From contig NZ_CP040174.1 of the NCBI RefSeq assembly GCF_007858535.1, forward strand, positions 992,001 through 1,056,000: a DNA stretch of 64,000 nt. The letters run 5' to 3'. Of the stretch, positions 2,591-19,734 are shown one piece after another. A program made the position numbers and the translations under genes. This DNA is from Arthrobacter sp. UKPF54-2 (GTDB lineage Bacteria; Actinomycetota; Actinomycetes; Actinomycetales; Micrococcaceae). Under the pieces are notes generated by a model. That model had not been told where the DNA came from. It did no database searches and saw nothing but the letters and a program-made list of their open reading frames with translations. The first letter of the stretch is position 1; the number at the start of each line of letters is the position of its first letter.

Positions 2591-2692
2591 GGATCACACC
2601 CTTTCCGCCGACCGTCCCGGCAGCAGGTCCTAGAAGCCCCATGCTATCCAAGGGCACCCAGACACCCCTGTGAACTTGCTGGAAAATCTATG

Positions 2693-2706
2693 TGCAAGCG
2701 CTTACA
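2693..2706. promoter_or_regulatory. LacI-family (cre/MalR-like) operator TGCAAGCGCTTACA
   Basis: It matches the LacI-family pattern TGNAANCGNTTNCA at every fixed position. It sits 82 bases before the amylase start, which suggests repression by a sugar-responsive LacI-type regulator (maltose type). The regulator gene is not in the window. Confidence 0.7.
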
Positions 2707-2787
2707 GTTGTGACTTGGCTCTCAGGTGCCGGTCTCCCGCATCCACCCTTCGTCGAGGCAACGTCGCTCACCCGGAAGGTTTCCATC

Positions 2788-5700
2788 GTGTCCACCCGCA
2801 GCTCCAGCCTGCCCCGGCCGCCCCGTTTCAGGCGCGGCCTGGGGCTCCCCCAGCCCCGCCCCGCCGCCCGCACGCTCACGGCCCTGGCGGCGGCGCTGGC
2901 CGTCGCCGCCGTCGCCGTCGTTCCCGCCCACGCCGCCCCCGGGGGCGGCGATCCGGGCACTCCGCCGGGGTCGCATGCCCTGCGCGGGCCGGTCACGGAC
3001 GAGCGGTTCTACTTTGTGATGGCGGACCGGTTCAGCAACGGCAGCACGGCGAACGACGACGGCGGCCTCGGCGCCGACCCCATGGTCTCCGGCTTCGATC
3101 CGACGAAGAAGGGGTTCTACAACGGCGGGGACCTCAAGGGCCTGCGGGAGAAGATCGACTACATCCAGGGCCTGGGCACCACGTCGATCTGGCTGACCCC
3201 GAGCTTCAAGAACAAGGCGGTCCAGCCGAAGGACCAGTCCGCCGGTTACCACGGCTACTGGGTCACCGACTTCACCCAGATCGACCCGCACCTGGGCACC
3301 AACGCGGAGCTGAAGACCCTCATCGACGAGGCGCACGCCCGCGGCATGAAGGTGTACTTCGACATCATCACCAACCACACCGCCGACGTGATCAGCTACC
3401 AGGAAGGCGACCGGACGGCCTACAAGTCCAAGGACGCCTCGCCCTACCGCACCGCCGCCGGCGAACCGTTCGATGACCGGCACTACGCCGGTACCGGCAG
3501 CTTCCCGAAACTGGATGCTGCCACCTCCTTCCCGTACACGCCGAAGCTCGCGCCCGGCGACGAGAACCTCAAGGTCCCGGCCTGGCTCAACGACCCCACG
3601 CTCTACCACAACCGCGGCGACACGACCTTTGAGGGCGAAAACTCCTCCTACGGCGACTTCTTCGGCCTGGACGACCTGTTCACCGAAAACCCCGCCGTGG
3701 CGGACGGCATGGCCGGCATCTACGAAAAATGGATCGGCGACTTCGGCGTGGACGGCTTCCGGATCGACACCATGAAGCACGTCAACGACGAGTTCTGGCA
3801 GCAGTTTGGGCCCCGCGTGCTCGACTACGCCAAGGCGCACGGCAAGGGAGAGTTCTTTATGTTCGGCGAGGTCTTTGACACCTCCAAGAGCTTCACCTCG
3901 CAGTTCACCACCCGCAACAAGATGCAGGCCGTGCTGGACTTCCCGTTCCAGGACGCCGCCCGCAACTTCGCCTCCCGCGGCCAGGGCGCCAAGGAGCTGG
4001 CGACCTTCTTCGACGGCGACGACTGGTACACCGACGCCGATTCGAACGTCTACGAGCTGCCCACCTTCCTCGGCAACCACGACATGGGCAGGATCGGCAG
4101 CTTCATCACCGCGGACAACCCGAACGCGGACGACGCCGAACGCGTCGCCCGGGACCGGCTCGCGCACGAGCTGATGTACTTCTCGCGCGGCAACCCGGTG
4201 GTCTACTACGGGGACGAACAGGGCTTTACCGGCCCCGGCGGGGACCAGGACGCCCGGCAGACCATGTTTGCCAGCAAGGTCCCGGACTACCTCGACGATG
4301 ACCTGCTGGGCACCGACGCCACCCACGCGTCAGACAACTTCAACCCCTCCCACCCGCTGTACCAGGAGATCAGCAAGCTCGCTGCGCTGACCTCCGAGCA
4401 CCCGGCCCTGCGCAACGGCGCCCACCAGAACCGCTACGCCTCCGACGGCCCGGGCATCTACGCCTTCTCCCGCACCGACGCGAAGGACCAGCGCGAATAC
4501 GTGGTCTCGGTCAACAACAGCACCAAGGCCCAGACAGCCGCGGTCCCCACCTACGTGGGCAAGCGCACCTTCACCCGGATCTACGGCGACGCGAGCGCCG
4601 AGGTCAAGACCGCGGCGGACGGGAAGCTGACGGTGACGGTTCCGCCGCTGTCCGCGGTTGTCTACGCGTCCTCAGGCCGGATCCCGCACTCCAAGGCGGC
4701 GCCCGCCGTCGTCCTGCAGGAACCGGCAGCGGCGGCCGCGGACAACAGCCGCGTCCGCGTGGCGGCCGACGTCGACGGCAGCTCCTTCTACGAGGTCACC
4801 TTCCAGGCCCGCACGGCCGGGGGCGAGTGGGCCTCCATCGGCACCGATGACACGGCACCGTACCAGGTCTTCCACGACGTCTCCGCCCTGCCCGCCGGCT
4901 CGGCGGTCGAGTACCGCGCAATCGTGCTGGACAACGGCGCGCACACCGCCGTGAGCCGGCCCCGCGCCGGCACCGTCCCGGCCCCGGCGCTCAGCATCGT
5001 CAACCCCAAGGAAGGCAGCAGCGTCCGCGGCAAGGTGGAGGTGGGCGCCGTCGCCAGCCCCGACAAGGCCGACTACGTGGTCCGGTTTGAACGCAGCATC
5101 AGCGGCGGTCCCTGGTCGAAGTTCGGCGAGGACAGCTCCTCCCCCGCCTACACCGCGGTGGACGACCTGGCCAAGTTGCAGGTGCCGGACGGCACGCAGC
5201 TGCGCTACCGCGCCCTGATGACCGTGCCGGGCGCCGGCGAGATCATCAGCGGCATCCGCACCGTGGTGGCCGGGGACCTTCCGCAGCCCGCCTCGGTCAC
5301 CGTGGCCGGGAGCCTCGACTCGGAACTGGGCTGCCCCGGGGACTGGCAGCCGGCCTGCCCCGCGGCCTTCCTGAAGCTGGACCCGGCGGACAAGATCTGG
5401 CGGCTAACCGTTCCCGATCTGCCCGCCGGCAGCTACGAGTTCAAGGCCGCGATCAACGGCTCCTGGGACGAGAACTACGGCGCGGGCGGCGGGGCCAACG
5501 GCGGCAACATCGTGCTGAACCACCCCGGCGGCGCCGTCACCTTCCGCTACGACCACAGCACCCACCTGATCAGCGCCGTCTACGCCTCCCAGCAGCCGGC
5601 GGCGGTTGCGGTGGCCGGGGACCTCGACTCCGAGCTCGGCTGCCCGGTCGACTGGATGCCGGACTGCCCGCAGGCCCAGCTCGCCCTGGACCCGGCGGAT

Positions 5701-5892
5701 CTCGTCTGGAAGCTGACCATCCCTGACCTGCCGGCCGGCACCTACTCCTACAAGGCCGCCCTCAACCGGTCCTGGACCGAGAACTACGGTGCGGGCGGGG
5801 AACCGGGCGGCGGCAACATCAGCCTGGCGCACGGCGGAGGGCCGGTCACGGTCCGGTACGACCACGTCACCCACCGGATCAGCGCCGGCTAA
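2788..5892 (+). CDS. Secreted GH13 alpha-amylase with two C-terminal X25-like modules
   Basis: 1034 residues from a GTG at 2788, chosen because GGAAGGT lies seven bases upstream and a signal peptide follows at once (basic N-region, hydrophobic core 30-45, cleavage after AHA at about 49). GH13 signatures are intact: region I DIITNH (Asp192, His197), region II GFRIDTMKH (nucleophile Asp327), region III GEVF (acid/base Glu361) and region IV FLGNHD (Asp432). A beta-sandwich follows, then two Ig-like stretches (about 660-830). Two tandem repeats of about 95 residues end the protein (837-930 and 939-1034). Each begins VAGxLDSELGCPxDW and ends VTxRYDHxTHxIS, the X25 type seen in amylopullulanases. 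It should hydrolyse alpha-glucans outside the cell. A frame extension to 2692 exists but lacks a good start. Confidence 0.93.
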   Translation: MSTRSSSLPRPPRFRRGLGLPQPRPAARTLTALAAALAVAAVAVVPAHAAPGGGDPGTPPGSHALRGPVTDERFYFVMADRFSNGSTANDDGGLGADPMVSGFDPTKKGFYNGGDLKGLREKIDYIQGLGTTSIWLTPSFKNKAVQPKDQSAGYHGYWVTDFTQIDPHLGTNAELKTLIDEAHARGMKVYFDIITNHTADVISYQEGDRTAYKSKDASPYRTAAGEPFDDRHYAGTGSFPKLDAATSFPYTPKLAPGDENLKVPAWLNDPTLYHNRGDTTFEGENSSYGDFFGLDDLFTENPAVADGMAGIYEKWIGDFGVDGFRIDTMKHVNDEFWQQFGPRVLDYAKAHGKGEFFMFGEVFDTSKSFTSQFTTRNKMQAVLDFPFQDAARNFASRGQGAKELATFFDGDDWYTDADSNVYELPTFLGNHDMGRIGSFITADNPNADDAERVARDRLAHELMYFSRGNPVVYYGDEQGFTGPGGDQDARQTMFASKVPDYLDDDLLGTDATHASDNFNPSHPLYQEISKLAALTSEHPALRNGAHQNRYASDGPGIYAFSRTDAKDQREYVVSVNNSTKAQTAAVPTYVGKRTFTRIYGDASAEVKTAADGKLTVTVPPLSAVVYASSGRIPHSKAAPAVVLQEPAAAAADNSRVRVAADVDGSSFYEVTFQARTAGGEWASIGTDDTAPYQVFHDVSALPAGSAVEYRAIVLDNGAHTAVSRPRAGTVPAPALSIVNPKEGSSVRGKVEVGAVASPDKADYVVRFERSISGGPWSKFGEDSSSPAYTAVDDLAKLQVPDGTQLRYRALMTVPGAGEIISGIRTVVAGDLPQPASVTVAGSLDSELGCPGDWQPACPAAFLKLDPADKIWRLTVPDLPAGSYEFKAAINGSWDENYGAGGGANGGNIVLNHPGGAVTFRYDHSTHLISAVYASQQPAAVAVAGDLDSELGCPVDWMPDCPQAQLALDPADLVWKLTIPDLPAGTYSYKAALNRSWTENYGAGGEPGGGNISLAHGGGPVTVRYDHVTHRISAG

Positions 5893-7330: not shown

Positions 7331-7834
7331 TCAGTGGTGTCCGGGCTGCCCGTCGAGGGCTTCGGTCATGCGGCGCAGGAACCCGACGATGATGCGGCTT
7401 TCCTCTGCACTCAGCTCTTCGGCCACGGCCAGCATCCGGCGGTGCATTTCTCCGAGGGTGGTGCGGACCTCCGAATCGGTGGCCGCCGTCGGGACGATCA
7501 CGAGGGAGCGCCGGTCCGTGGGGTGCGGTTCGCGGCGGACGTGGCCGCTTTGGACGAGCCGGTCAATCAGCGACGTGGTGGACGCCGTCGTGATTCCCAG
7601 GGTGCGGCTGAGGTCCTTTGGGCCGACCCGCTCCCCCGTCGCCTGGGCACGCAACAGGTAACGCAGTGCCAGCAGGTCCGTCTCGCCCATGCCCATAGAG
7701 TCCCGGGTGGAACGACGGGTTGCCACCTCGGCGGCGCGGTAGCTCCGCAGCGCATGCAGCACGGCCGCCGGGGGATCAAGCCGGTCGTCCGGGCCGTACC
7801 AGTACCCTGAGTGCGAGTCGCTGTCGGAGTTCAT
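7331..7834 (-). CDS. MarR-family transcriptional regulator
   Basis: 167 residues with a winged-helix core. Helices carry LLALRYLLRAQATGERVGPKDLSRTLGI, the recognition region is TTASTTSLIDRLVQSGHV, and the wing is REPHPTDRRSLVIVPT, the MarR signature DxRxxxVxLT in slightly altered form. A C-terminal dimerisation helix follows. It probably binds a palindrome in its own promoter and may control the adjacent kinase operon or the divergent RND operon. The ATG at 7834 is preceded by TAGGAT and six bases (tgagga), the leaderless geometry seen repeatedly in this window. The GAGGA abuts the ATG and is too close to act as a normal ribosome site. Confidence 0.9.
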   Translation of the reverse strand: MNSDSDSHSGYWYGPDDRLDPPAAVLHALRSYRAAEVATRRSTRDSMGMGETDLLALRYLLRAQATGERVGPKDLSRTLGITTASTTSLIDRLVQSGHVRREPHPTDRRSLVIVPTAATDSEVRTTLGEMHRRMLAVAEELSAEESRIIVGFLRRMTEALDGQPGHH

Positions 7835-7919: not shown

Positions 7920-7948
7920 TTGACGCGCATTGGCGTCAGGGCCATTAT
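7920..7948 (+). promoter_or_regulatory. Promoter TTGACG-N17-CATTAT of the RND operon with embedded inverted repeat
   Basis: The -35 is TTGACG at 7920-7925, the spacer is 17 bases, and the -10 is CATTAT at 7943-7948. TGACGC (7921-7926) and GCGTCA (7933-7938) form perfect six-base arms around GCATTG. An operator there would cover the -35 and spacer. The transcript leader would be about 135 bases. Confidence 0.55.
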
Positions 7949-8044: not shown

Positions 8045-8091
8045 AATCCCGCAGCAACCCGCCGCAGCAATCCGGCCAGAAGGTGCCGGCC

Positions 8092-11000
8092 ATGATGACA
8101 GCGGTGTTGCGCCTGGTCCTCCAGTTCCGGCTGCTGGTGCTGGCCGTGGCCGCGGGAATCCTCGCTTTTGGCCTAACGACGCTGCCCGGCATGGCCGTGG
8201 ACACCTTCCCCGAATTTGCGCCGCCGCAGGTCGAAATCCAGACCGAGGCCCTGGGTTTGTCGGCGGCGGAAGTCGAACAGCTCGTCACCTCGCCAATGGA
8301 GGCCGACCTGCTCAACGGCGTGGCCTGGGTGGAGGCAATCCGCTCCAAATCGGTGCCCGGCCTTTCCTCGATCCAGATGGTTTTCAAGCCGGGCACAGAC
8401 TTGTTCCGCGCGCGCCAGCTGGTTTCGGAGCGGCTGACCCAGGCGCGCGCCCTGCCGAACGTGTCGGCGGCGCCCGTCCTCATGCAGCCCCTTTCCTCGA
8501 CCAGCCGGGTCATGATGATCCGGCTGACCTCCACCGACATGTCGGCCATCGACATGTCGGTACTCGCCCGCTGGACCATGAAACCCGGGCTGCTCGCAGT
8601 GCCCGGAGTTGCAAACGTTGCCATCTGGGGCCAGCGCGACCAGCAGCTGCAGGTCCTGGTGGACCCGGCACAGCTGGCAGCCAAAGGCGTGACGCTGGAC
8701 GAGGTCATCAAGACCACCGGCAACTCCGTCTGGGTCTCGCCTCTGAGCTACCTCGAGGCCTCCACCCCGGGCACGGGCGGCTTCTTCGAAACGGGGCACC
8801 AGCGGATCGGCGTCCAGCACGTCCTGCCCATCGCGTCCCCCCAGGACCTGGGCCAGATTCCCATTGAGGGAACCAACGGCAGCCTCACGCTCAAGGACGT
8901 TGCCACGGTCGCAACGGATCACCAGCCCCTGATTGGCGATGCCCTCCTGGGCAAGGATGCCGAGCTGCTGCTGGTCATCGAGAAGTTCCCGGAGACCAAC
9001 ACGGCAGCTGTTACGAAGGGCGTTGATGACGCCCTCAAAGCGCTCCAGCCCGGCTTGCCGGGCGTCAAGATCGACACCACTGTCTACCGGCAGGCGGACT
9101 TCGTCCAGGAGGAAATCGGCAGCCTGGGCATCGCGCTGCTGATCACGCTGGTGCTGATCGTGGCTATGTTCGGTGCGTTCTTCCGCTCGTGGCGCGCCGC
9201 CGTCATCAGCTTGGTCACCATACCGGTCGCGCTGTCCGCCGCCGCGCTGCTGCTGTACGTGCGCGGCGCAGGCATGAACACGATGGTCCTGGCCGGGTTG
9301 GTCCTAGCGCTGGCCGTCATCGTCGGAGACGTGGCCGAGGACCTCAACGGCCTCGCCGGCCCGAGGCTCCAAGACCCGCGGGGCAACGGGCAGGACAAGG
9401 AGCGGAGGGTGGCCCTGATTCCGGAGGCCATGCGGTCGGTCCGGACGCCGCTGCTCTACGCGCTGCTGATCATGGCGCTGGGCGTCATGCCGGCATTCTT
9501 CGTGGCGGGCGAGAACGGGGCGCTGTTCGGCCCGCTCGTCCTGAACTATCTGTTGGCCCTCGTGATCGCCACCATCGTGGCGCTCACGGTCACGACGGCG
9601 CTGGCGTACTACCTCCCGGCAGGTCCCGCCCTGCGCCGCGAACACGCCGCCCTGGCGCGGTTTGAAGACGGCTACGGCAGGCTCGTGTCCCGGGTGGCCG
9701 CAAAGGCCCGGTGGGTCTTCGCGGCCTCCGCCGTGGTGGCGCTGGCAGGACTTGCCCTGACCCCGCAGCTGGCCGGGTCCCGTCCCGTGGTGCCCGTGCT
9801 GGCCGACCGGACGCTCGTGGTGCACTGGAGCGCGGCGGCCGGCACCTCGGACCAGGAAATGAGCCGGATCACCGAAGCCGCCGCCGTCGAACTGCGCGCC
9901 CTCCCGGGGGTCGCCAACGTGGGCGGACATGTGGGCCGTGCGGTCACCTCGGACCAGGTCGGGGACGTCAGCTCGGGCGAGCTCTGGGTCACCGTGGATC
10001 CGGACGCGCCCTACGGCGACACTGCGGCCGCCATCGGGCAGGTCGTCGCCGGGTACCCCGGCCTGAGCAGCAAGGTATCGACCTATCCGCAGGAGCGCAT
10101 CGACCAGATCCGCGAGGCCGGGAACAGCGGCTTCGGGGTGCGTGTCTACGGCCTCGACACGGCGGTCCTCCGGCAGAAGGCTGCGGAGATGCAGCAGATC
10201 CTGGAACACACCGCCGGCGTCGTGAATCCCCGCATCGACGCCCCCGTGGAGCAGCCGATCGCGGAGGTCAAGGTGGACCTCGCTGCTGCGCAGAAGGCCA
10301 GCATCATTCCCGGTGACGTTCGCCGCGCGGCAGCGGCGCTGCTGCAGGGCATCGAAGTTGGAAACCTCTACGAGCAGCAGAAGGTCTTCTCGGTGATCGT
10401 GAAGGGTGCGCCGTCCACGCGGAACAGCCTCGACAGCGTCCGCAATCTGATCATCGACACCCCCAACGGCGGCCATGTCCGCCTGGGCGACGTGGCCCAG
10501 GTAACGATGGTGGGAAACGAAGCCGCGATCCTGCACGATGACACCTCACGGCGGATCGACGTGAAGGCCGAGATCCAGGGCCGTTCCGTGGCCGACGTGC
10601 AGCGGGACATCAACAGCAGCCTGCAGCAGATGCAGTTCCCGCTGGCCTACCACGCCGAGGTCCTGAGCGGGTACGCACAGCTGCAGGGCAACTACCAGTG
10701 GCTGTGGATCCTCGCGGCGATCGCGGCGGCCGGTGTGCTGGTGCTGCTGCAGACGGCCGCCGGCGGCTGGAAACTCGCCGGCATGATCTTCCTGGGCCTG
10801 ATCCTGTCCCTGACCGGCGGGGTACTGGCCGCCCAGGCCTCAGGCTCGGTGAACTCGCTGATCTCGCTCGTGGCCTTCGCGGCCGTGCTGGGGATCGCCG
10901 CCCGCGGCGCCCTCCTGCTGCTGGAAGCGGTCCGGAGCCTCCGGGCAACGGACAGCACCGCCCCGTGGCCCGAGCTGGTGCTCCGGGGCGCGCGGGAACG

Positions 11001-11253
11001 GATGGGACCCACCCTCATGACGGCCTTGATGACCGCGGTGATCCTGCTGCCGCTGGTCCTGATCGGCGGCGTCGTCGGGACGGAGATTATCCTGCCACTC
11101 GCCGTGATCATCTGGGGCGGGCTGCTGACGACTTCCCTCTTTGTGCTGTTCGTGATGCCCGCTGTGCTGCTTCGGTTCCAGCCGGTGGAAGCGCTGAGCC
11201 CCCGGACCAGCAAGGTCCCGCTGGACCGGCCCGGACGACAAGATGTGCCATGA
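8092..11253 (+). CDS. CusA/CzcA-like RND efflux pump, divergent copy (pump 1)
   Basis: 1053 residues. The ATG at 8092 is chosen for AGAAGG eight bases upstream; a GTG at 8083 is also in frame. It has two RND repeats with twelve predicted spans. HME-type markers include VDTFPEFAPPQVEIQTEALGLSAAEVEQLV near the start, IRSKSVPGLSSIQM, and GQRDQQLQVLVDP in the porter domain. Compared with pump 2, the TM4 proton-relay pair is changed. Pump 2 has VVVDDAIIDVEN, here IVGDVAEDLN with Gly412-Asp413; the TM10 RNG motif is RGA (Gly939). The TM4 loop is also divergent. It may be an impaired or regulatory partner in a hetero-oligomer. It overlaps the next gene by four bases (ATGA). Confidence 0.88.
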   Translation: MMTAVLRLVLQFRLLVLAVAAGILAFGLTTLPGMAVDTFPEFAPPQVEIQTEALGLSAAEVEQLVTSPMEADLLNGVAWVEAIRSKSVPGLSSIQMVFKPGTDLFRARQLVSERLTQARALPNVSAAPVLMQPLSSTSRVMMIRLTSTDMSAIDMSVLARWTMKPGLLAVPGVANVAIWGQRDQQLQVLVDPAQLAAKGVTLDEVIKTTGNSVWVSPLSYLEASTPGTGGFFETGHQRIGVQHVLPIASPQDLGQIPIEGTNGSLTLKDVATVATDHQPLIGDALLGKDAELLLVIEKFPETNTAAVTKGVDDALKALQPGLPGVKIDTTVYRQADFVQEEIGSLGIALLITLVLIVAMFGAFFRSWRAAVISLVTIPVALSAAALLLYVRGAGMNTMVLAGLVLALAVIVGDVAEDLNGLAGPRLQDPRGNGQDKERRVALIPEAMRSVRTPLLYALLIMALGVMPAFFVAGENGALFGPLVLNYLLALVIATIVALTVTTALAYYLPAGPALRREHAALARFEDGYGRLVSRVAAKARWVFAASAVVALAGLALTPQLAGSRPVVPVLADRTLVVHWSAAAGTSDQEMSRITEAAAVELRALPGVANVGGHVGRAVTSDQVGDVSSGELWVTVDPDAPYGDTAAAIGQVVAGYPGLSSKVSTYPQERIDQIREAGNSGFGVRVYGLDTAVLRQKAAEMQQILEHTAGVVNPRIDAPVEQPIAEVKVDLAAAQKASIIPGDVRRAAAALLQGIEVGNLYEQQKVFSVIVKGAPSTRNSLDSVRNLIIDTPNGGHVRLGDVAQVTMVGNEAAILHDDTSRRIDVKAEIQGRSVADVQRDINSSLQQMQFPLAYHAEVLSGYAQLQGNYQWLWILAAIAAAGVLVLLQTAAGGWKLAGMIFLGLILSLTGGVLAAQASGSVNSLISLVAFAAVLGIAARGALLLLEAVRSLRATDSTAPWPELVLRGARERMGPTLMTALMTAVILLPLVLIGGVVGTEIILPLAVIIWGGLLTTSLFVLFVMPAVLLRFQPVEALSPRTSKVPLDRPGRQDVP

Positions 11254-11705
11254 GCCCCACTGCTTCGCTCCTGGGCCGAAAGGCCGCCGCCCTGGTCATT
11301 GCCGCCGCCCTCGCGCTGGGTGCCGCAGGCTGCGCCAAGATCGAGGAGCCCGCACCGCCCAACGGCGACCCTGCCGTCCTCGCGGAGGTTCCGGGCACGG
11401 ACCTGCACCGCATCACGCTGACTGAGCGCGCCGTCGAGCGGGTCGGCCTCAAGACGGATGTGACGGCCGTGGATCCGCAGACGCAGAAGCTGAGCGTCTC
11501 CTACTGGGCCATCCTGTACGACAGCACCGGCAAGACCTGGGTCTACACCAATCCCGAGCCCCGCGTCTACGTGCGCCAGGCGATCACCGTCGAGCGGATC
11601 AACGGCGCCGTCGCGCTGCTGAGCCAGGGACCTGCGGCCGGCACCGTGGTGGTCACCACCGGGGCCGAGGAGCTGTACGGCGCCGAATTCGATACGGCGC
11701 ACTGA
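11250..11705 (+). CDS. Lipoprotein resembling only the membrane-proximal end of an RND adaptor
   Basis: 151 residues with a lipoprotein signal: basic GRK, hydrophobic core, then LGAAGC with Cys28. The mature part (about 45-151) holds DLHRITLTERAVERVGLKT and, at the end, VYVRQAITVERINGAVALLSQGP with VVTTGAEELYGAEF. These match the last beta domain of CusB/CzcB-type periplasmic adaptors. The lipoyl/barrel-sandwich and alpha-hairpin parts of a normal adaptor of 350-450 residues are missing, which fits a cell with no outer-membrane channel to reach. ATGA overlap with pump 1 and a one-base gap to pump 2 show one transcript with coupled translation. It probably docks on the outer face of the pumps; this is inference. 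Confidence 0.82.
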   Translation: MSPTASLLGRKAAALVIAAALALGAAGCAKIEEPAPPNGDPAVLAEVPGTDLHRITLTERAVERVGLKTDVTAVDPQTQKLSVSYWAILYDSTGKTWVYTNPEPRVYVRQAITVERINGAVALLSQGPAAGTVVVTTGAEELYGAEFDTAH

Positions 11706-11706
11706 C

Positions 11707-14700
11707 ATGCGCTGGCTCATCGGCATCAGCCTGCGGTTCAGGACCATCGTGGTGGCCATCGCCTGCGCGGTGATGCTGCTGGGCTCACTGCAGCTGGGCT
11801 CAGCATCCGTGGACGTCTTCCCTGAATTCGCGCCGCCCCGGGTGGAAATCCAGACCGCGTGCCTGGGGCTGACCGCGGAGGAAGTCGAGCAGCTGGTCAG
11901 CGTCCCGATTGAGGCGGCGGTGGGCGGCATGCCGGGCCTGGACGAGGTGCGGTCCAAGTCCGTGCCGCAGCTCTCCTCGATCGTGCTGATCTTCCACCAG
12001 GGTACGGAACTGCTCAACGCGCGCCAGTTGGTCTCGGAGCGGATGGCGTCCGTGACGGCGGCCTTGCCCACCTGGGCGGCCCCGCCGGTGATGTTGCAAC
12101 CGTTGTCCGCCACCAGCCGGGTCATGAAGATCGGGATGACCTCGGCGGACCGGTCCCTGATCGAGATGTCCATGCTGTCCTACTGGACCATCCGGGCGCG
12201 GCTGCTCCGCGTCCCGGGCGTGGCCAATGTGGCCATCTGGGGCGAACGCCTGCAGATGCTGCAGGTCCAGGTGGAACCGGACAAGCTCAAGGCCCAGAAC
12301 GTGTCGCTGAACCAGGTCATGGAGGTCACCGCGGGCGCCCTCGACGCCGGGCTGCTGAAGTACTCCCCCGGACGGTTCATCGGCACGGGCGGCTTCATCG
12401 ACAGCCCGACCCAAAGGATGGGGGTCCGGCACGTCCAGCCCATCCAGACGCCGGCCGACCTGGCCCAGGTCACCATCCGGGAGAAAGACGGGGTGGCGCT
12501 GCACCTCGGCGACGTCGCCCAGGTGGTGGAGGACCACCAGCCGCTGATTGGTGACGCCGTCATCAACAACGGGCACGGGCTGATGCTGATCGTCGAGAAA
12601 CTGCCGTGGGGCAACACCCTGGATGTGACCAAGGGCGTGGAGGAAGCCCTGAAAGAGCTCCAGCCAGGGCTGAGCGGGATCAGCTTCGACACCACCATCT
12701 TCCGCCCGGCGAGCTTTGTCGAGGAGTCCATCTCCAACCTGAGCACCGCCCTGCTGCTGGGCTGCCTGCTCGTCGTCCTGATCCTCGGCGCCTTCCTCTT
12801 CCAATGGCGCACCGCGCTGATCAGCCTGGTCGCCATTCCGCTCTCGCTGCTCACCGCGGCCCTGGTCCTCTATTTCACGGCCAGTTCCATCAACACCATG
12901 GTCCTGGCCGGCCTGGTGATCGCCGTCGGCGTGGTGGTGGACGACGCGATCATCGACGTCGAAAACATCATGAGACGGCTGCGGCAGCACCGCGCCGCGG
13001 GTTCTGAGGGCCCGGCAAGCGGTGACTCGACGGCCTCCGTGGTCTTGAAGGCCTCCCTCGAGATGCGGAGTCCGATCGTCTACGCGACCCTGATCATTGT
13101 GGTCGCAGCCGTGCCGATCTTCTTCCTGGACGGACTCACCGGCGTCTTCTTCAAGCCGCTGGCCATCACTTACACCCTCGCGGTGCTGGCCTCCATGCTG
13201 GTGGCCCTGACCGTGACACCGGCTTTGGCCCTGATCCTGCTGGGCAACGCAAAACTCGAGAAACGCGACCCGCCGCTGGTGCGGGTGCTCAAGCGCGGCT
13301 ACCACGCACTGCTCTCCCGGATCATGAACCGTCCCCGGTTTGGCTACGCGGGCTTCGCCGCCCTCGCCGTCGTGGGCCTGGCGATCACCCCGCTGATGGG
13401 GTCCTCGCTGTTTCCGACGTTCAAGGAACGGGACTTCCTGATGCACTGGATCTCGCAGCCGGGAACCTCGGCGGAAGAGGAGTACCGGATCTCGCAGCGC
13501 GGCTGCGCAGAGTTCCTCAAGGTCCCGGGCGTGCTGAACTGCGGGACGCATATCGGGCAGGCGTTCGCTGCCGACGAAATAGTGGGGGTCAACGCCGGCG
13601 AGCATTGGATCAGCATCGACCGCCACGCGAACTATGACGAGACGCTGGCCGCCGTCCAGGAAGTGGTGGACGGCTACCCTGGACTTCACCGCGACGTCCA
13701 GACCTACCTGAAGGAGCGGATCGAGGAGGTCCTGACCGGGGCCAGCGAGCCCATCCTGGTCCGCGTGTTCGGTGACGACCTGACCGTGCTGCGGGAACAG
13801 GCCCAGCGGGTCAAGAAGATCCTGGATGACATTCCGGGCACCGATGACGCCCACGTGTCCCTCGAGGTCGAAGTGCCGCAGATTACGGTCACGGTGGACC
13901 TGGCCGCCGCGCAAAAGTACGGGCTGAAGCCCGGGGACGTGCGGCGGGCGGCGGCGACGCTGGTGGCCGGCGAAGAGGTCGGCGACGTCTTCCGGGACGG
14001 GCGGGCCTACGACGTGCAGGTCTGGAGCACCCCCGCGACCCGCTCCAGCGTCACGAGCATCGAGGATCTGCCGATCGACACCCCCAACGGGCAGCGGGTC
14101 CGGCTGGCCGACGTCGCCGCCGTCAAACTGCAGGCGACGCCGAACCAGATCGACCGCACCAACGGGTCCCGCCGGGTGGAAGTGGGATCATTCCTGGACA
14201 AGGGCGCAGATATGGGAGTGGTGGTGGGCCAATTGCAGGACCGGCTGGCTGCCCTGGAACTGCCGGCCGGCTACAGCGTACAGCTGCTGGGTGAGTTCAC
14301 CGAGCGCGAGGCCGCGACGAACCGCCTCATGATCTTTGCCGTGGCAGCCCTCGCCCTGATCCTGCTGCTCCTGCAGACCTCGTTCCGCAGCTGGCGGCTG
14401 GCAATTCTTTCGCTGCTGACGCTGCCGATCGCCCTGGTGGGCGGCATGATGGCCGCCTACATCTCAGGCGGGGTCCTGTCCCTGGGCTCGGTGGTCGGGT
14501 TCCTGACAGTCATGGGGATCGCGGCGCGCAACGGCATCCTGCTCATCAACCACTGCCAGCACCTGGAGAAGCACGAGGGCCAGGCCTTTGGCCGTGCCCT
14601 TGTGCTGCGCGGGGCCGGGGAACGGCTCTCGCCGATCCTCATGACCACGCTCGCCACCGGGCTGGCCCTGGTGCCCCTGGTGGTCATGGGCGCCGTCCCG

Positions 14701-14853
14701 GGCCACGAAATCGAGCACCCCATGGCCGTCGTCATCCTCGGCGGCCTGGTCACCTCAACGCTGCTCAACCTGTTCATTGTGCCGTCGCTCTATCTGCGCT
14801 TCGCCAGATCGAAGAAAGAGCGCCTGGCCGCCACGCCCGAGGTTGCCGGCTGA
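11707..14853 (+). CDS. CusA/CzcA-like RND efflux pump, canonical copy (pump 2)
   Basis: 1048 residues, starting one base after the lipoprotein stop. It has the full heavy-metal RND pattern: VDVFPEFAPPRVEIQT, LTAEEVEQLVSVPIE, VRSKSVPQLSS and ISNLSTALLLGCLLVVLILGAFL. The TM4 proton relay is GVVVDDAIIDVEN with Asp412 and Asp413 at the equivalent place to Gly412-Asp413 of pump 1. TM10 has MGIAARNGILLINH (Asn942). It should drive proton-coupled export of metal ions or another cation from the membrane or cell wall side. The metal cannot be named from sequence: clear copper methionine triads were not located. Copper genes at 30-35 kb are a separate locus. Confidence 0.92.
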   Translation: MRWLIGISLRFRTIVVAIACAVMLLGSLQLGSASVDVFPEFAPPRVEIQTACLGLTAEEVEQLVSVPIEAAVGGMPGLDEVRSKSVPQLSSIVLIFHQGTELLNARQLVSERMASVTAALPTWAAPPVMLQPLSATSRVMKIGMTSADRSLIEMSMLSYWTIRARLLRVPGVANVAIWGERLQMLQVQVEPDKLKAQNVSLNQVMEVTAGALDAGLLKYSPGRFIGTGGFIDSPTQRMGVRHVQPIQTPADLAQVTIREKDGVALHLGDVAQVVEDHQPLIGDAVINNGHGLMLIVEKLPWGNTLDVTKGVEEALKELQPGLSGISFDTTIFRPASFVEESISNLSTALLLGCLLVVLILGAFLFQWRTALISLVAIPLSLLTAALVLYFTASSINTMVLAGLVIAVGVVVDDAIIDVENIMRRLRQHRAAGSEGPASGDSTASVVLKASLEMRSPIVYATLIIVVAAVPIFFLDGLTGVFFKPLAITYTLAVLASMLVALTVTPALALILLGNAKLEKRDPPLVRVLKRGYHALLSRIMNRPRFGYAGFAALAVVGLAITPLMGSSLFPTFKERDFLMHWISQPGTSAEEEYRISQRGCAEFLKVPGVLNCGTHIGQAFAADEIVGVNAGEHWISIDRHANYDETLAAVQEVVDGYPGLHRDVQTYLKERIEEVLTGASEPILVRVFGDDLTVLREQAQRVKKILDDIPGTDDAHVSLEVEVPQITVTVDLAAAQKYGLKPGDVRRAAATLVAGEEVGDVFRDGRAYDVQVWSTPATRSSVTSIEDLPIDTPNGQRVRLADVAAVKLQATPNQIDRTNGSRRVEVGSFLDKGADMGVVVGQLQDRLAALELPAGYSVQLLGEFTEREAATNRLMIFAVAALALILLLLQTSFRSWRLAILSLLTLPIALVGGMMAAYISGGVLSLGSVVGFLTVMGIAARNGILLINHCQHLEKHEGQAFGRALVLRGAGERLSPILMTTLATGLALVPLVVMGAVPGHEIEHPMAVVILGGLVTSTLLNLFIVPSLYLRFARSKKERLAATPEVAG

Positions 14854-14894: not shown

Positions 14895-14935
14895 AAAAAC
14901 CCCGGCTTCCCGCCACCAGGAAGCCGGGGGTTTTT
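14895..14935. terminator. Terminator shared by the RND operon and, before integration, by tRNA-Lys
   Basis: AAAAACCCCGGCTTCC pairs with GGAAGCCGGGGGTTTTT around a short loop, with T-runs on both strands. On the minus strand it lies directly after the duplicated tRNA 3' end, the position the tRNA terminator would hold in the uninterrupted chromosome. Confidence 0.85.
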
Positions 14936-14988
14936 CCACTCTTCGCTAAAAGAGTGGGCCCTGTGGGGCTCGAACCCACGACCCACGG
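14933..14988. repeat. Left attachment site: 56-bp copy of the tRNA-Lys 3' end
   Basis: Bases 14933-14988 are identical to 19640-19695. The repeat covers the acceptor 3' strand, T arm and variable loop of tRNA-Lys plus 22 bases downstream of the gene. Beyond base 14988 the two copies diverge at once. This is the usual att duplication left by a tyrosine recombinase using a tRNA 3' end. Confidence 0.92.
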
Positions 14989-17492: not shown

Positions 17493-18269
17493 AGCCCCTC
17501 GAGCATCGGCCACATTCACACCGTGCTGTCTGCCGTCCTGGCGTGGGCAGTCGAAACGGACCGGATCAGCCGCAACCCCGCAGCGGGTGTCCGTCTGCCA
17601 CGAGTCGCCGCCCCGGAGCAGGTCTATCTCAGCCACGCCCAGGTGGCAGAACTCGCCACCGCCGCGGAGGAGCTCACCGGACGCACCACGGACGGAACGC
17701 TCGTCCGGTTCCTCGCCTACACCGGCCTGCGAATCAATGAGGCGCTGGCCCTCAAAGTCTCCGCTCTCGACCTCATGCGAGCCCGCGCCGCCGTCGTCGC
17801 TACGTGGACGCTCGACAGGGTCGGCAAAAAGGTGCTCGGAACGCCCAAGACCCACGAGAAACGAGCCGTGCCGCTGCCCCGTTTCCTCGTCGCCGAGCTC
17901 CAGGAGCTCACCGCCGGCCAGTCGCAGGACGCCCACGTATTCCAGACGCCCACCGGAGAGGCGCTGAACGACCACAACTGGCGAAACCGCGTCTTCAATC
18001 TCGCCGCCCACGACGCCGACCTCGACGGCCTAGGCGTCACCCCGCACAAGCTACGCCACACCGCGGCCAGCGCGGCAATCGGGGCCGGGGCCGACGTCAA
18101 AGTCGTCCAGCTCATGCTGGGACACAAAGACGCCACGGAAACTCTCAACACCTACGGCCACCTTTGGCCGGACCGGCTCGACGAAGTCTCCGCAGCCCTC
18201 GAAACAGCCAGGACGTCCGCCCTCGACGCCACCGGCAATGTCTCCGGAATGTACCCACGGACCGCATAA
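17493..18269 (+). pseudogene. Tyrosine recombinase (phage integrase), N-terminus lost
   Basis: The frame opens after a TGA at 17490. The first usable start is the GTG at 17523, and integrase-like sequence begins a few codons before it (HTVLSAVLAWAVETDRI). The catalytic domain is complete, counted from 17523: Arg70 in TGLRINEAL, Lys109 in PKTHEKR, HKLRHTA with His175 and Arg178, LGHKDA with His201, and nucleophile Tyr211 in NTYGHL. The arm-binding and most of the core-binding N-terminal domain, about 120-150 residues in relatives, is absent. This would be the enzyme that created the 56-bp att repeats. It is probably inactive now, though a shortened protein could still be made. Confidence 0.88.
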
Positions 18270-18285: not shown

Positions 18286-19575
18286 GGGTTATAGGACAAA
18301 ATGTGTGTCTGCGTGAGGCCTGCTTCCTAGTGCCGGGGCGGTAATGCGGGGTTTGCTATGCCCTGAGACTCGTAGTTGTGGCTGGTGCTGGGAATTCCTC
18401 GCGTTGTGTGCTCTGTGGTTCTGGACTCAAGCGGAACGGTAAGACCTCCGCCGGGCGGACCCGGTGGAGATGTACGGGGTGCGGTGCGAGCAGCACCAGG
18501 ACCCGGCCCGATGTGGAACGCCGGGCCCAACTGGGCGCCTTTCTCGGCTGGCTCATGGGCAAGAGCTCCCAGGTCGAGTGTGTCCGGGAAGGCGCCGACC
18601 GGTCCTTCCGCCGCCGGACGGGCTGGTGCTGGAATATCGCCCCACAGATTCCCGTCACCGGCGAGGTCCACGACCAGATCCAGGTCGACGGGATTTACGT
18701 CGGCTCGTGGTGCTGCCTGATCGCGGTCGCCGGCGATTACGTCCTCGGGTGGCAATGGTGCGACACCGAGAAAAAGGCTGCGTGGGCGGCCCTGCTGGCA
18801 AGGTTCCCCGCGCCCACGGTCGTGATCACCGACGGCGGCGCCGGGATTGCCGCCGCCCTGTCTGAATGCTGGTCCGAGACCGCGGTCCAGCGCTGCCAGG
18901 TGCACGTCCAACGCAACGTCCGCACCTACCTGACCGGCCGGCCCAGAACCGAGGCCGGCAAAGCGCTCCTGCGCCTTGGCCGTGCCCTGACCAGAATCAC
19001 CACGGCGACCGAAGCCGCGGCCTGGCTCGGAGGCCTGAACGACTGGTATCAGGACCACGGGCACCTCGTCCGGGCCAGGACCTACCGCAACGGCACCGCC
19101 CTCGTGCCGGGATGGGTGCGGGCAAACCAAAGCTGGTGGTTCACCCACGACCGGCTGCGCAAGGCCTACCGGCTCCTCGAACGCCTCAGCCGGGCCGGGA
19201 CTCTCTTCACGTACCTGCGTGCCGAACACGCCGGGCTCAACATTGCACCCACAACCAACCGAATCGAAGGCGGCACGAACGCCCAGCTCCGTCTAATCCT
19301 CCGGGCCCACCGCGGGATGAGCGAAGAGCACCAAAAGCGCGCCATCGAGTGGTACCTCTACCTCCACAGCGAAAACCCGCTACCGCCGGCCGAGCTGATC
19401 GCGGCGCACCACTACGAGCTCCCGCGGCCGAAGCGAACGGTGATCACGGACGGTACTCCGGGCCCGGAACGTTATAGCGCCGGTCTCAGCGCCGAAGAAG
19501 GCCTCTGGGCCAGAAAAGGCTGGGCAGGACGCACCTAACACGCCCGAAAAAGACACACATTTTGTCCTATAACCC
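18286..19575 (+). mobile_element. Complete IS1249-like insertion sequence (IS256 family), 1290 bp
   Basis: It has perfect 25-base terminal inverted repeats (18286-18310 and 19551-19575; outer bases GGGTTATAGGACAAAATG) and an eight-base target duplication on both sides. One transposase gene fills it. It inserted directly after the integrase stop codon, inside the island, so it is younger than the island. Perfect ends and an intact gene suggest recent movement. Confidence 0.93.
18378..19538 (+). CDS. IS1249-type transposase
   Basis: 386 residues from a GTG at 18378. An N-terminal zinc ribbon (CVLCGSGLKRNG...WRCTGCG, about residues 9-36) precedes a helix-turn-helix region. The DDE catalytic core follows, with the first Asp in IQVDGIYVGS, the second in VVITDGGAG and the Glu in NRIEGGTNAQLR. 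The CQVHVQRNV segment after the second Asp is typical of the IS256 superfamily, and the zinc ribbon points to the IS1249 group common in Actinobacteria. The gene is uninterrupted. Confidence 0.92.
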   Translation: MAGAGNSSRCVLCGSGLKRNGKTSAGRTRWRCTGCGASSTRTRPDVERRAQLGAFLGWLMGKSSQVECVREGADRSFRRRTGWCWNIAPQIPVTGEVHDQIQVDGIYVGSWCCLIAVAGDYVLGWQWCDTEKKAAWAALLARFPAPTVVITDGGAGIAAALSECWSETAVQRCQVHVQRNVRTYLTGRPRTEAGKALLRLGRALTRITTATEAAAWLGGLNDWYQDHGHLVRARTYRNGTALVPGWVRANQSWWFTHDRLRKAYRLLERLSRAGTLFTYLRAEHAGLNIAPTTNRIEGGTNAQLRLILRAHRGMSEEHQKRAIEWYLYLHSENPLPPAELIAAHHYELPRPKRTVITDGTPGPERYSAGLSAEEGLWARKGWAGRT

Positions 19576-19598: not shown

Positions 19599-19642
19599 CA
19601 AAAAAGCCCCGATTCCCTGCAATTGCAAGGAACCGGGGCTTT
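19599..19642 (-). terminator. tRNA-Lys terminator carried by the island
   Basis: On the minus strand AAAGCCCCGGTTCC pairs with GGAATCGGGGCTTT and is followed by a T-run. It resembles but is not identical to the terminator at 14895-14935. The element therefore brought its own tRNA terminator along with the replacement 3' end. Confidence 0.82.
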
Positions 19643-19695
19643 CCACTCTTCGCTAAAAGAGTGGGCCCTGTGGGGCTCGAACCCACGACCCACGG
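19640..19695. repeat. Right attachment site: 56-bp copy inside the intact tRNA-Lys region
   Basis: Identical to 14933-14988. This copy completes the functional tRNA gene, and its tRNA part is element-derived. Confidence 0.92.
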
Positions 19696-19734
19696 ATTAA
19701 AAGTCCGATGCTCTACCAACTGAGCTAAAGGCCC
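19662..19734 (-). tRNA. tRNA-Lys (anticodon UUU)
   Basis: 73 bases without an encoded CCA. Acceptor GGGCCUU pairs with AGGGCCC (two wobble or weak pairs near the base), and the D arm is GCUCAGUUGGUAGAGC. The anticodon loop is CUUUUAA with anticodon UUU. The T arm is GUGGG UUCGAGC CCCAC. A TACAGT -10-like hexamer lies upstream on the minus strand at 19809-19814. It is the integration site of the island. Confidence 0.95.

Follow-up and report, generated by a model that had tools for sequence, protein, structure and literature searches.

A pump-lipoprotein-pump operon of Arthrobacter with a predicted one-domain RND adaptor between two sister pumps

A 64,000-nucleotide stretch of the Arthrobacter sp. 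UKPF54-2 chromosome (contig NZ_CP040174.1, positions 992,001 to 1,056,000), hereafter the window, carries on its forward strand three tightly packed genes for two pumps of the resistance-nodulation-division (RND) superfamily and, between them, a small lipoprotein. Positions are those of the whole stretch, and P1 and P2 denote pump 1 and pump 2 here and in related loci. Pump 1 (8092..11253) is an RND permease of about 1053 residues in which the first aspartate of transmembrane helix 4 (TM4) is replaced by glycine (VGD), the lipoprotein (11250..11705) has 151 residues with a lipobox cysteine at position 28, and pump 2 (11707..14853) is a 1048-residue permease with both TM4 aspartates, D412 and D413, intact. 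Both pumps are full-length members of ACR_tran (PF00873), at 476 bits for pump 1 and 719 bits for pump 2. The longest open reading frame (ORF) of pump 1 opens at GTG 8083 (1056 residues), and the start is most likely ATG 8092, the better candidate because AGAAGG (8078-8083) lies 8 bases upstream of it. The pump 1 stop is overlapped by the lipoprotein start (ATGA), and the lipoprotein and pump 2 meet at TGACATG with a one-base gap, exactly as in the single operon that an initial annotation, made from the letters alone, had described.

Its sequence and modeled fold identify the lipoprotein as a bare membrane-proximal domain from the RND adaptor family. On its own it matches the RND_mfp model (TIGR01730) weakly, at E 0.059 over profile positions 247-313 of 322 and with 12.3 bits against a curated cut-off of 94.9, which is not reached; the same model is matched by all nine family members compared at E up to 1, the best at 1.3e-5. 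In a profile-profile comparison (hhalign) the lipoprotein aligns with six hairpin-containing adaptors over their final 75 columns (99.7%, E 3.4e-27), which is not an independent draw, as most of the six were recruited by similarity to the lipoprotein at this very end. Independent support is therefore drawn from the RND_mfp model and from their own nearly end-to-end matches to ZneB (3lnn, 5.8e-15) and CusB (3ne5_B, 2.1e-12). In a full adaptor, the two halves of the membrane-proximal domain flank everything else. A 36-residue profile of residues 41-76 picks up the N-terminal strand region in all nine close relatives compared, at 3.2e-19 to 0.0027, and in SilB (0.023), the best of 350 shuffled decoys reaching 0.55. 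Since both the C- and the N-terminal half are matched, both are retained and joined directly to one another.

The AlphaFold model of the lipoprotein is confident from residue 41 on, with a predicted local distance difference test score of 94-98 over residues 41-140. Foldseek ranks 1 to 25 are all RND adaptors or their complexes, with CusB first, and include AcrA, MexA, ZneB, BesA, a MexC-like protein and a nuclear magnetic resonance construct that combines an N-terminal metal site with the membrane-proximal domain. The domain alone is aligned in 11 of these 25 rows, at 1.1-2.1 Å over 59-64 columns. The beta-barrel, lipoyl and alpha-hairpin domains, as read by eye, are absent from the lipoprotein alignment, and the 151-residue model has no room for them. 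The initial annotation had recognized only this domain and had named kinship with an unrelated family as fatal to its reading; the RND_mfp matches, the hhalign result, the N-terminal profile and the Foldseek ranking answer that concern. The PsbQ, Spy and KGR families gave weak single-sequence matches, each to one of nine members versus nine of nine for RND_mfp, and were set aside.

The source genome, one contig of 3.5 Mb, holds a second pump-lipoprotein-pump unit (G000:C1:2849396-2856091), whose pumps are 54% (pump 1) and 71% (pump 2) identical to those of the window, and one lone, distant RND pump at 25-28% identity. A search for the outer-membrane channel family OEP/TolC (PF02321) gave no match in the whole genome, and the same search matches in 7 of 14 control genomes. 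No full-length adaptor scored over the TIGR01730 cut-off anywhere in the genome either. At E up to 1 there are 17 sub-threshold RND_mfp matches; two of these are the mini-adaptors, aligned to model positions 247/248-313, and the other 15 cover other parts of the profile. The missing hairpin domain, barrel-sandwich and outer channel gene that had been noted at the locus are paralleled by a genome without a PF02321 match and without a TIGR01730 match over cut-off.

The three-gene order, for which the initial annotation had proposed a search, proves to be a conserved unit. Scanning 84,980 species genomes with the lipoprotein alignment, using patterns drawn from its C-terminal half, returned 88 relatives, of which the best 80 loci were kept; all counts out of 80 refer to these. 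The adaptor is flanked by pumps on both sides in 70 of the 80, in several phyla. The other ten comprise five loci cut by a contig edge, four whose adaptor still has a hairpin and which show a single pump (the upstream view in L096 ends after 0.8 kb), and one orphan adaptor. Within the family, 10 of 197 genomes give a match to the lipoprotein, and six of them carry nine real loci, all pump-lipoprotein-pump and all with the TGACATG junction, the window and the second copy being two of the nine. The four weak matches (L007-L010) were dropped, being short, close to the signal-peptide end and in loci of 3.1-3.2 kb with no pump. The phylum sample of 396 genomes contains 17 with an adaptor match, which is strong in 15, and both pumps are present in 14 of the 15 loci (which include the second copy of the window genome and G009), the 15th being cut at a contig edge. 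All 15 strong genomes carry a pump that shares 57% identity or more with pump 2, as do G398 and G581, where it is cut by the contig end. With two candidates scored per genome, other RND matches (E up to 1e-60) are at most 31% identical, save the P1 pumps of the same loci (39-56%), and no pump of the P1/P2 clade was found standing alone in the 396 genomes except at a contig edge.

Lipidation is common without being universal, a loose lipobox pattern giving a start in 68 of the 80 loci. The adaptor alignment contains 54 sequences, the window's own and 53 of those 68, and has ten invariant columns, with no histidine and no cysteine or methionine besides Cys28 and Met1; the invariance of the cysteine is partly a product of selection by the lipobox pattern. 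Two loci depart from the common layout. In the Chloroflexi locus L087, one of the five at a contig edge, the adaptor lies at the contig start and a second pump, in two pieces, follows pump 2 downstream (L087:3780-6647); gene order is therefore not fully fixed. In Arthrobacter sp. ISL-28, an orphan mini-adaptor (L035:5959-6408) has no pump match within about 6 kb and retains the TGACATG junction.

The unit had initially been suggested to be a Gram-positive form, a restriction that is not borne out by its distribution in two-membrane lineages. A bare mini-adaptor lies between two pumps on a contig binned as Bacteroidota (L069), and barrel-containing forms occur in Rokubacteria; these labels, like Gemmatimonadetes for L064, belong to metagenome-assembled genomes and are as the record titles give them. 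The Porin_O_P, Haem_bd and DUF3575 genes found in L069 fit a diderm cell. Its phosphate-selective-porin-type gene (Porin_O_P, L069:9529-10938) lies directly 3' of pump 2, with a purple acid phosphatase gene upstream, and the porin could perhaps be the outer-membrane exit in a diderm with no TolC gene nearby.

Four adaptor states were read by eye from the alignment of adaptors. Lipoyl and hairpin domains are both present in Hymenobacter (409 residues, with TolC), SilB and L099 (Isosphaeraceae, a 440-residue ORF; a TolC gene was not sought). The hairpin is kept and the lipoyl region much reduced in Methylomonas (314 residues), Sphingomonas (325 residues) and Verrucomicrobia, with TolC alongside in Methylomonas, Sphingomonas and L097. 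A barrel and membrane-proximal domain without hairpin characterize Rokubacteria L085, L086 and L088 (243-255 residues) and Chloroflexi L087 (at least 220 residues), and all other loci looked at have the membrane-proximal domain only (139-174 residues). The first two states go with one visible pump, the last two with two pumps where both sides are visible. A full-length adaptor in the operons of relatives had also been named beforehand as fatal to the one-domain reading. Hairpin-containing adaptors do occur, in four of the 80 loci and in three diderm plasmid loci, where they replace the mini-adaptor and only one pump is seen. The 174-residue adaptor of L078, in which the barrel is gone, nests among the barrel-containing Rokubacteria, and parsimony over three states requires three changes, which suggests, without proving it, that the barrel was lost more than once.

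The pumps fall into two sister groups. In quick tree searches that took in 60 and 58 of the 154 pumps, the P1 clade has a Shimodaira-Hasegawa-like approximate likelihood ratio support of 100, the P2 clade 99, and the grouping of P1 with P2 to the exclusion of single pumps 98. This is consistent with, but does not prove, an origin of P1 and P2 from one duplication. The nearest single pump in the tree is that of Methylomonas, 54.5% identical to pump 2. Over 68 loci, P1 and P2 distances correlate at r = 0.954, the largest of 2000 permutations being 0.236, and P1 changes 1.9 times faster than P2.

Residue usage also separates the two groups. Counts cover 72 P1, 73 P2, four single pumps and one distant lone pump, with three plasmid single pumps and SilA added; pumps shorter than 950 residues (broken or cut) were excluded here and from the trees. 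The column of SilA D405 (D405 in CusA as well), the first TM4 aspartate, is Asp in 73/73 P2 and 7/7 single pumps, and it is lost from 62 of the 72 P1 (Gly 52, Ala 4, Thr 3, His 3), Asp remaining in 10. The TM4 Glu-Asn pair and the porter residues E574, D576, H580, E624, E670, R671 and E674 persist in at least 98% of P2 plus single pumps, whereas fewer than half of P1 keep them. In the particular case of the window, pump 1 lacks the TM4 aspartate, the Glu-Asn pair, D576, E624 and E674, a degeneracy on which the initial annotation had not remarked.

The substrate had been proposed to be a metal, a claim that remains unproven. The CusA/CzcA heavy-metal efflux (HME) model TIGR00914 is the best curated NCBIfam model for both pumps, with scores (580.2 bits for pump 2, 369 for pump 1) below its cut-off of 701.45 bits. 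M573, M623 and M672 of CusA, which we take to be the methionines of its Cu/Ag site, correspond in P2 and single pumps to His (80/80), Phe (70/80; Ala in 10/80) and Glu (80/80) respectively. The fixed His and Glu at M573 and M672 speak against a CusA-like Cu(I)/Ag(I) site. Among 40 flanking proteins scanned, covering part of the flanks, there was no metal-specific regulator, metal chaperone or P-type ATPase. These neighbors are a mixture (MarR, LuxR-type response regulators, histidine kinases, PAP2, GNAT, LeuRS, a porin, a solute-binding protein, ABC parts and others) that points to no substrate, and assigning a metal from them was dropped. In three lineages the unit or a tripartite relative has a PAP2-family phosphatase gene nearby (L092:9729-10400, L094:1870-2589, L104:1988-4275), a possible hint at a lipid-phosphate substrate.

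Other copies of the unit are accompanied by a conserved secreted protein of about 300 residues (N-terminus read by eye), whose gene follows pump 2 in the same orientation in 31 of the 80 loci, for example at L043:9509-10420, and precedes pump 1 in one more, giving 32/80; 21 of the 32 were aligned. Comparing four members with Pfam gave no family match; three against NCBIfam gave two sub-threshold beta-lactamase matches for one member (E 0.03-0.04), and one against the PDB gave no credible match (best E 0.017, ParM). In the source genome its only match is the gene within about 100 bp of pump 2 of the second copy (G000:C1:2848405-2849292), so the window copy is without it. Of the 396 phylum genomes, 14 give strong matches above 270 bits, a line placed in a gap picked after viewing the list; 12 of these are among the 15 adaptor genomes, and the other two are G398 and G581, where the gene adjoins the cut-off pump. 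Weaker relatives occur in 35 other genomes of the phylum. The fourth protein is probably an optional partner of the pump machine.

Taken together, the unit probably encodes an RND exporter that is independent of the outer membrane, in which two paralogous pumps form a mixed trimer clamped by a one-domain adaptor. Pump 2 would be the proton-driven protomer, and pump 1 a sister paralogue that assembles with it into the mixed trimer. Having lost one proton-relay aspartate and part of the charged porter cleft, pump 1 would most likely serve the trimer as a structural or regulatory subunit and not pump on its own. The lipoprotein would be tethered to the outer face of the membrane and clamp the porter domains in the way its counterparts in CusB, MexA and AcrA do, and substrate would be released outside the membrane rather than into a TolC duct. 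The mixed trimer, the clamping role and the division of labor between protomers are what we infer from the sequences. The loss of working residues from pump 1 suggests that the two pumps act as one mixed machine, and the mixed assembly raised by the initial annotation is still the best reading of the P1 and P2 clades, their correlated divergence and the P1 losses.

A more detailed version, which we put forward tentatively and at less than even odds, is an obligate heterotrimer of live and 'pseudo-pump' protomers with an adaptor stripped to its pump-binding domain. Loss of the hairpin would roughly coincide with the pump duplication, and repeated losses of the barrel would have followed; the second pump would have taken over the gating role of the adaptor, making TolC needless, and the secreted fourth protein of other copies would receive or cap the substrate.

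Several observations weigh against the mixed machine. Of the first 25 Foldseek rows for the lipoprotein, 14, among them the top hit, align with gaps across 138-167 columns at 13-22 Å, and no E-value falls below 0.001. Catellatospora and a Thermomicrobiales member have a hydrophobic N-terminus that lacks the lipobox cysteine, so lipidation is dispensable. The trees were built without bootstrap, and the first was rooted by two outgroup rows with long branches; the P1/P2 grouping persists without those two rows. Divergence in step is expected for any pair of genes inherited together, and the residue counts are weighted towards Arthrobacter relatives. The first TM4 aspartate is intact in ten P1, all outside Micrococcales (L059, L064, L069, L078, L079, L081, L084, L085, L088, L089), so two-pump units can exist without this loss. 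In the window, pump 1 has retained the equivalents of pump 2 H580, E670 and R671 (His, Glu and Arg), and E574 is conservatively replaced by Asp. P1 also retains the second TM4 aspartate (D413) in 72/72 and the TM10 arginine in 70/72 sequences, so its proton coupling may not be lost.

This retention, together with the full length of P1, fits two separate homotrimeric pumps with different substrates that share one mini-adaptor, a pair of pumps with no mixed complex, and excerpts of PMC12802153 state that MdtB and MdtC can each also form homotrimers. P1 without P2, however, was not seen in the 80 loci save at contig edges; the loss of the HME-type TM4 aspartate from most P1 and the close co-divergence with P2 speak against it as well, and we consider it unlikely.

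Alternatively, the lipoprotein could be a CusF-like substrate-binding or delivery protein on the outer face of the membrane, derived from an adaptor domain and not acting as a clamp. It is tethered and small, and SilB/CusB adaptors have metal-transfer functions. The fold it retains, however, is the pump-binding domain, and its ten invariant residues include no His, and Cys28 and Met1 are their only Cys and Met, so that we give this alternative little credence. An ordinary HME pump with a decayed, non-functional adaptor remnant, despite TIGR00914 being the best curated model for both pumps and the lack of a TolC match in the genome, is very improbable in view of the ten columns invariant over 54 sequences, the persistence of the mini-adaptor with the pumps across phyla, the unmet TIGR00914 cut-off and the absent Cu/Ag methionines.

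The proposed mixed-trimer exporter shares features with several known systems. With CusCBA, SilCBA and ZneCAB it has in common the pump fold and the best NCBIfam model, and the lipoprotein model fits the membrane-proximal domain of CusB and ZneB; here, however, there are two pumps instead of one, no TolC match, no hairpin, lipoyl or barrel domain, His and Glu in place of M573 and M672, and a score below the TIGR00914 cut-off. The tripartite relatives in Methylomonas, Sphingomonas, Hymenobacter and Verrucomicrobia provide the nearest single pumps and the same adaptor C-terminus, but have a single pump, an adaptor of 314-409 residues and a TolC family protein. The MmpL/MmpS systems of mycobacteria likewise combine an RND-superfamily pump with a small extracytoplasmic partner in actinobacteria. 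Pump 2 scores 20.0 bits against the MMPL Pfam cut-off of 20.5 compared with 719 for ACR_tran, and the lipoprotein has no match to the MmpS family up to E 10.

Like MdtABC and MuxABC, which form a B2C heterotrimer, the unit keeps together two sister pumps that would stem from one duplication (excerpts of PMC7015380 and PMC12802153). MdtABC has a full adaptor and TolC, whereas in the present unit the pumps, one of them degenerate, flank the adaptor gene; pump 2 is also far below the family cut-offs of NF007905 and NF007798 (273 vs 1774 and 259 vs 1584 bits). According to the same excerpts, the MdtB2C heterotrimer is active and the MdtB homotrimer inactive, and conflicting deletion data on MdtBC are also mentioned (PMC7015380). 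MdtB2C serves as a precedent for the mixed trimer that we infer here from gene evidence. The Borrelia adaptor BesA has naturally lost its hairpin, and the lipoprotein domain superposes on it at 1.6-1.7 Å in most BesA rows (4kks is gapped, at 22 Å). BesA has about 265 residues and works with the TolC homologue BesC (PMC4446572, in part), whereas here the barrel and lipoyl domains are gone as well and there is no TolC match.

Within open-licence PMC text we found neither an adaptor reduced to the membrane-proximal domain nor such a two-pump system. As far as its excerpts go, a 2024 survey of HME, NFE and HAE-1 pumps omitted Actinobacteria, Chloroflexi and Firmicutes other than Negativicutes (PMC10872679). 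Excerpts of a 2015 adaptor review describe the hairpin-less BesA and EmrA without a membrane-proximal domain, and Gram-positive adaptors did not turn out to be hairpin-less there (PMC4446572). RND pumps are understood as parts of two-membrane machines, with adaptors as bridges to TolC. A family that has the pump-binding domain only would separate bridging by the adaptor from pump binding, a natural experiment with intermediates in living lineages, and the degenerate sister pump would make the role of unequal protomers in an RND trimer testable in a soil bacterium.

Upstream of the operon, a divergent MarR-family gene (7331..7834, reverse strand; PF12802, 3.9e-11) is its putative regulator, which is likely but unproven. 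Promoter-like hexamers at 7920..7948 on the forward strand, 5' of pump 1, are a consensus match only (1 found versus 0.3 expected). Downstream, 46 nt past the pump 2 stop, lies a strong intrinsic terminator-like hairpin with a T-run (14900..14929, forward strand, usable in either direction; -24.8 kcal/mol, z -4.2). Further upstream, a large ORF (2692-5892), judged by eye and not put through a family search, looks like a secreted alpha-amylase whose C-terminal part carries repeats. A 56-bp exact direct repeat occurs at 14933-14988 and again at 19640-19695, the latter copy reaching the 3' part of a tRNA-Lys gene (19661-19734). Between the repeats lie about 4.7 kb in which two ORFs were recognized by eye, one recombinase-like (17523-18269) and one transposase-like (18378-19538), and the bracketed segment reads as an integrated element inserted immediately behind the pump operon.

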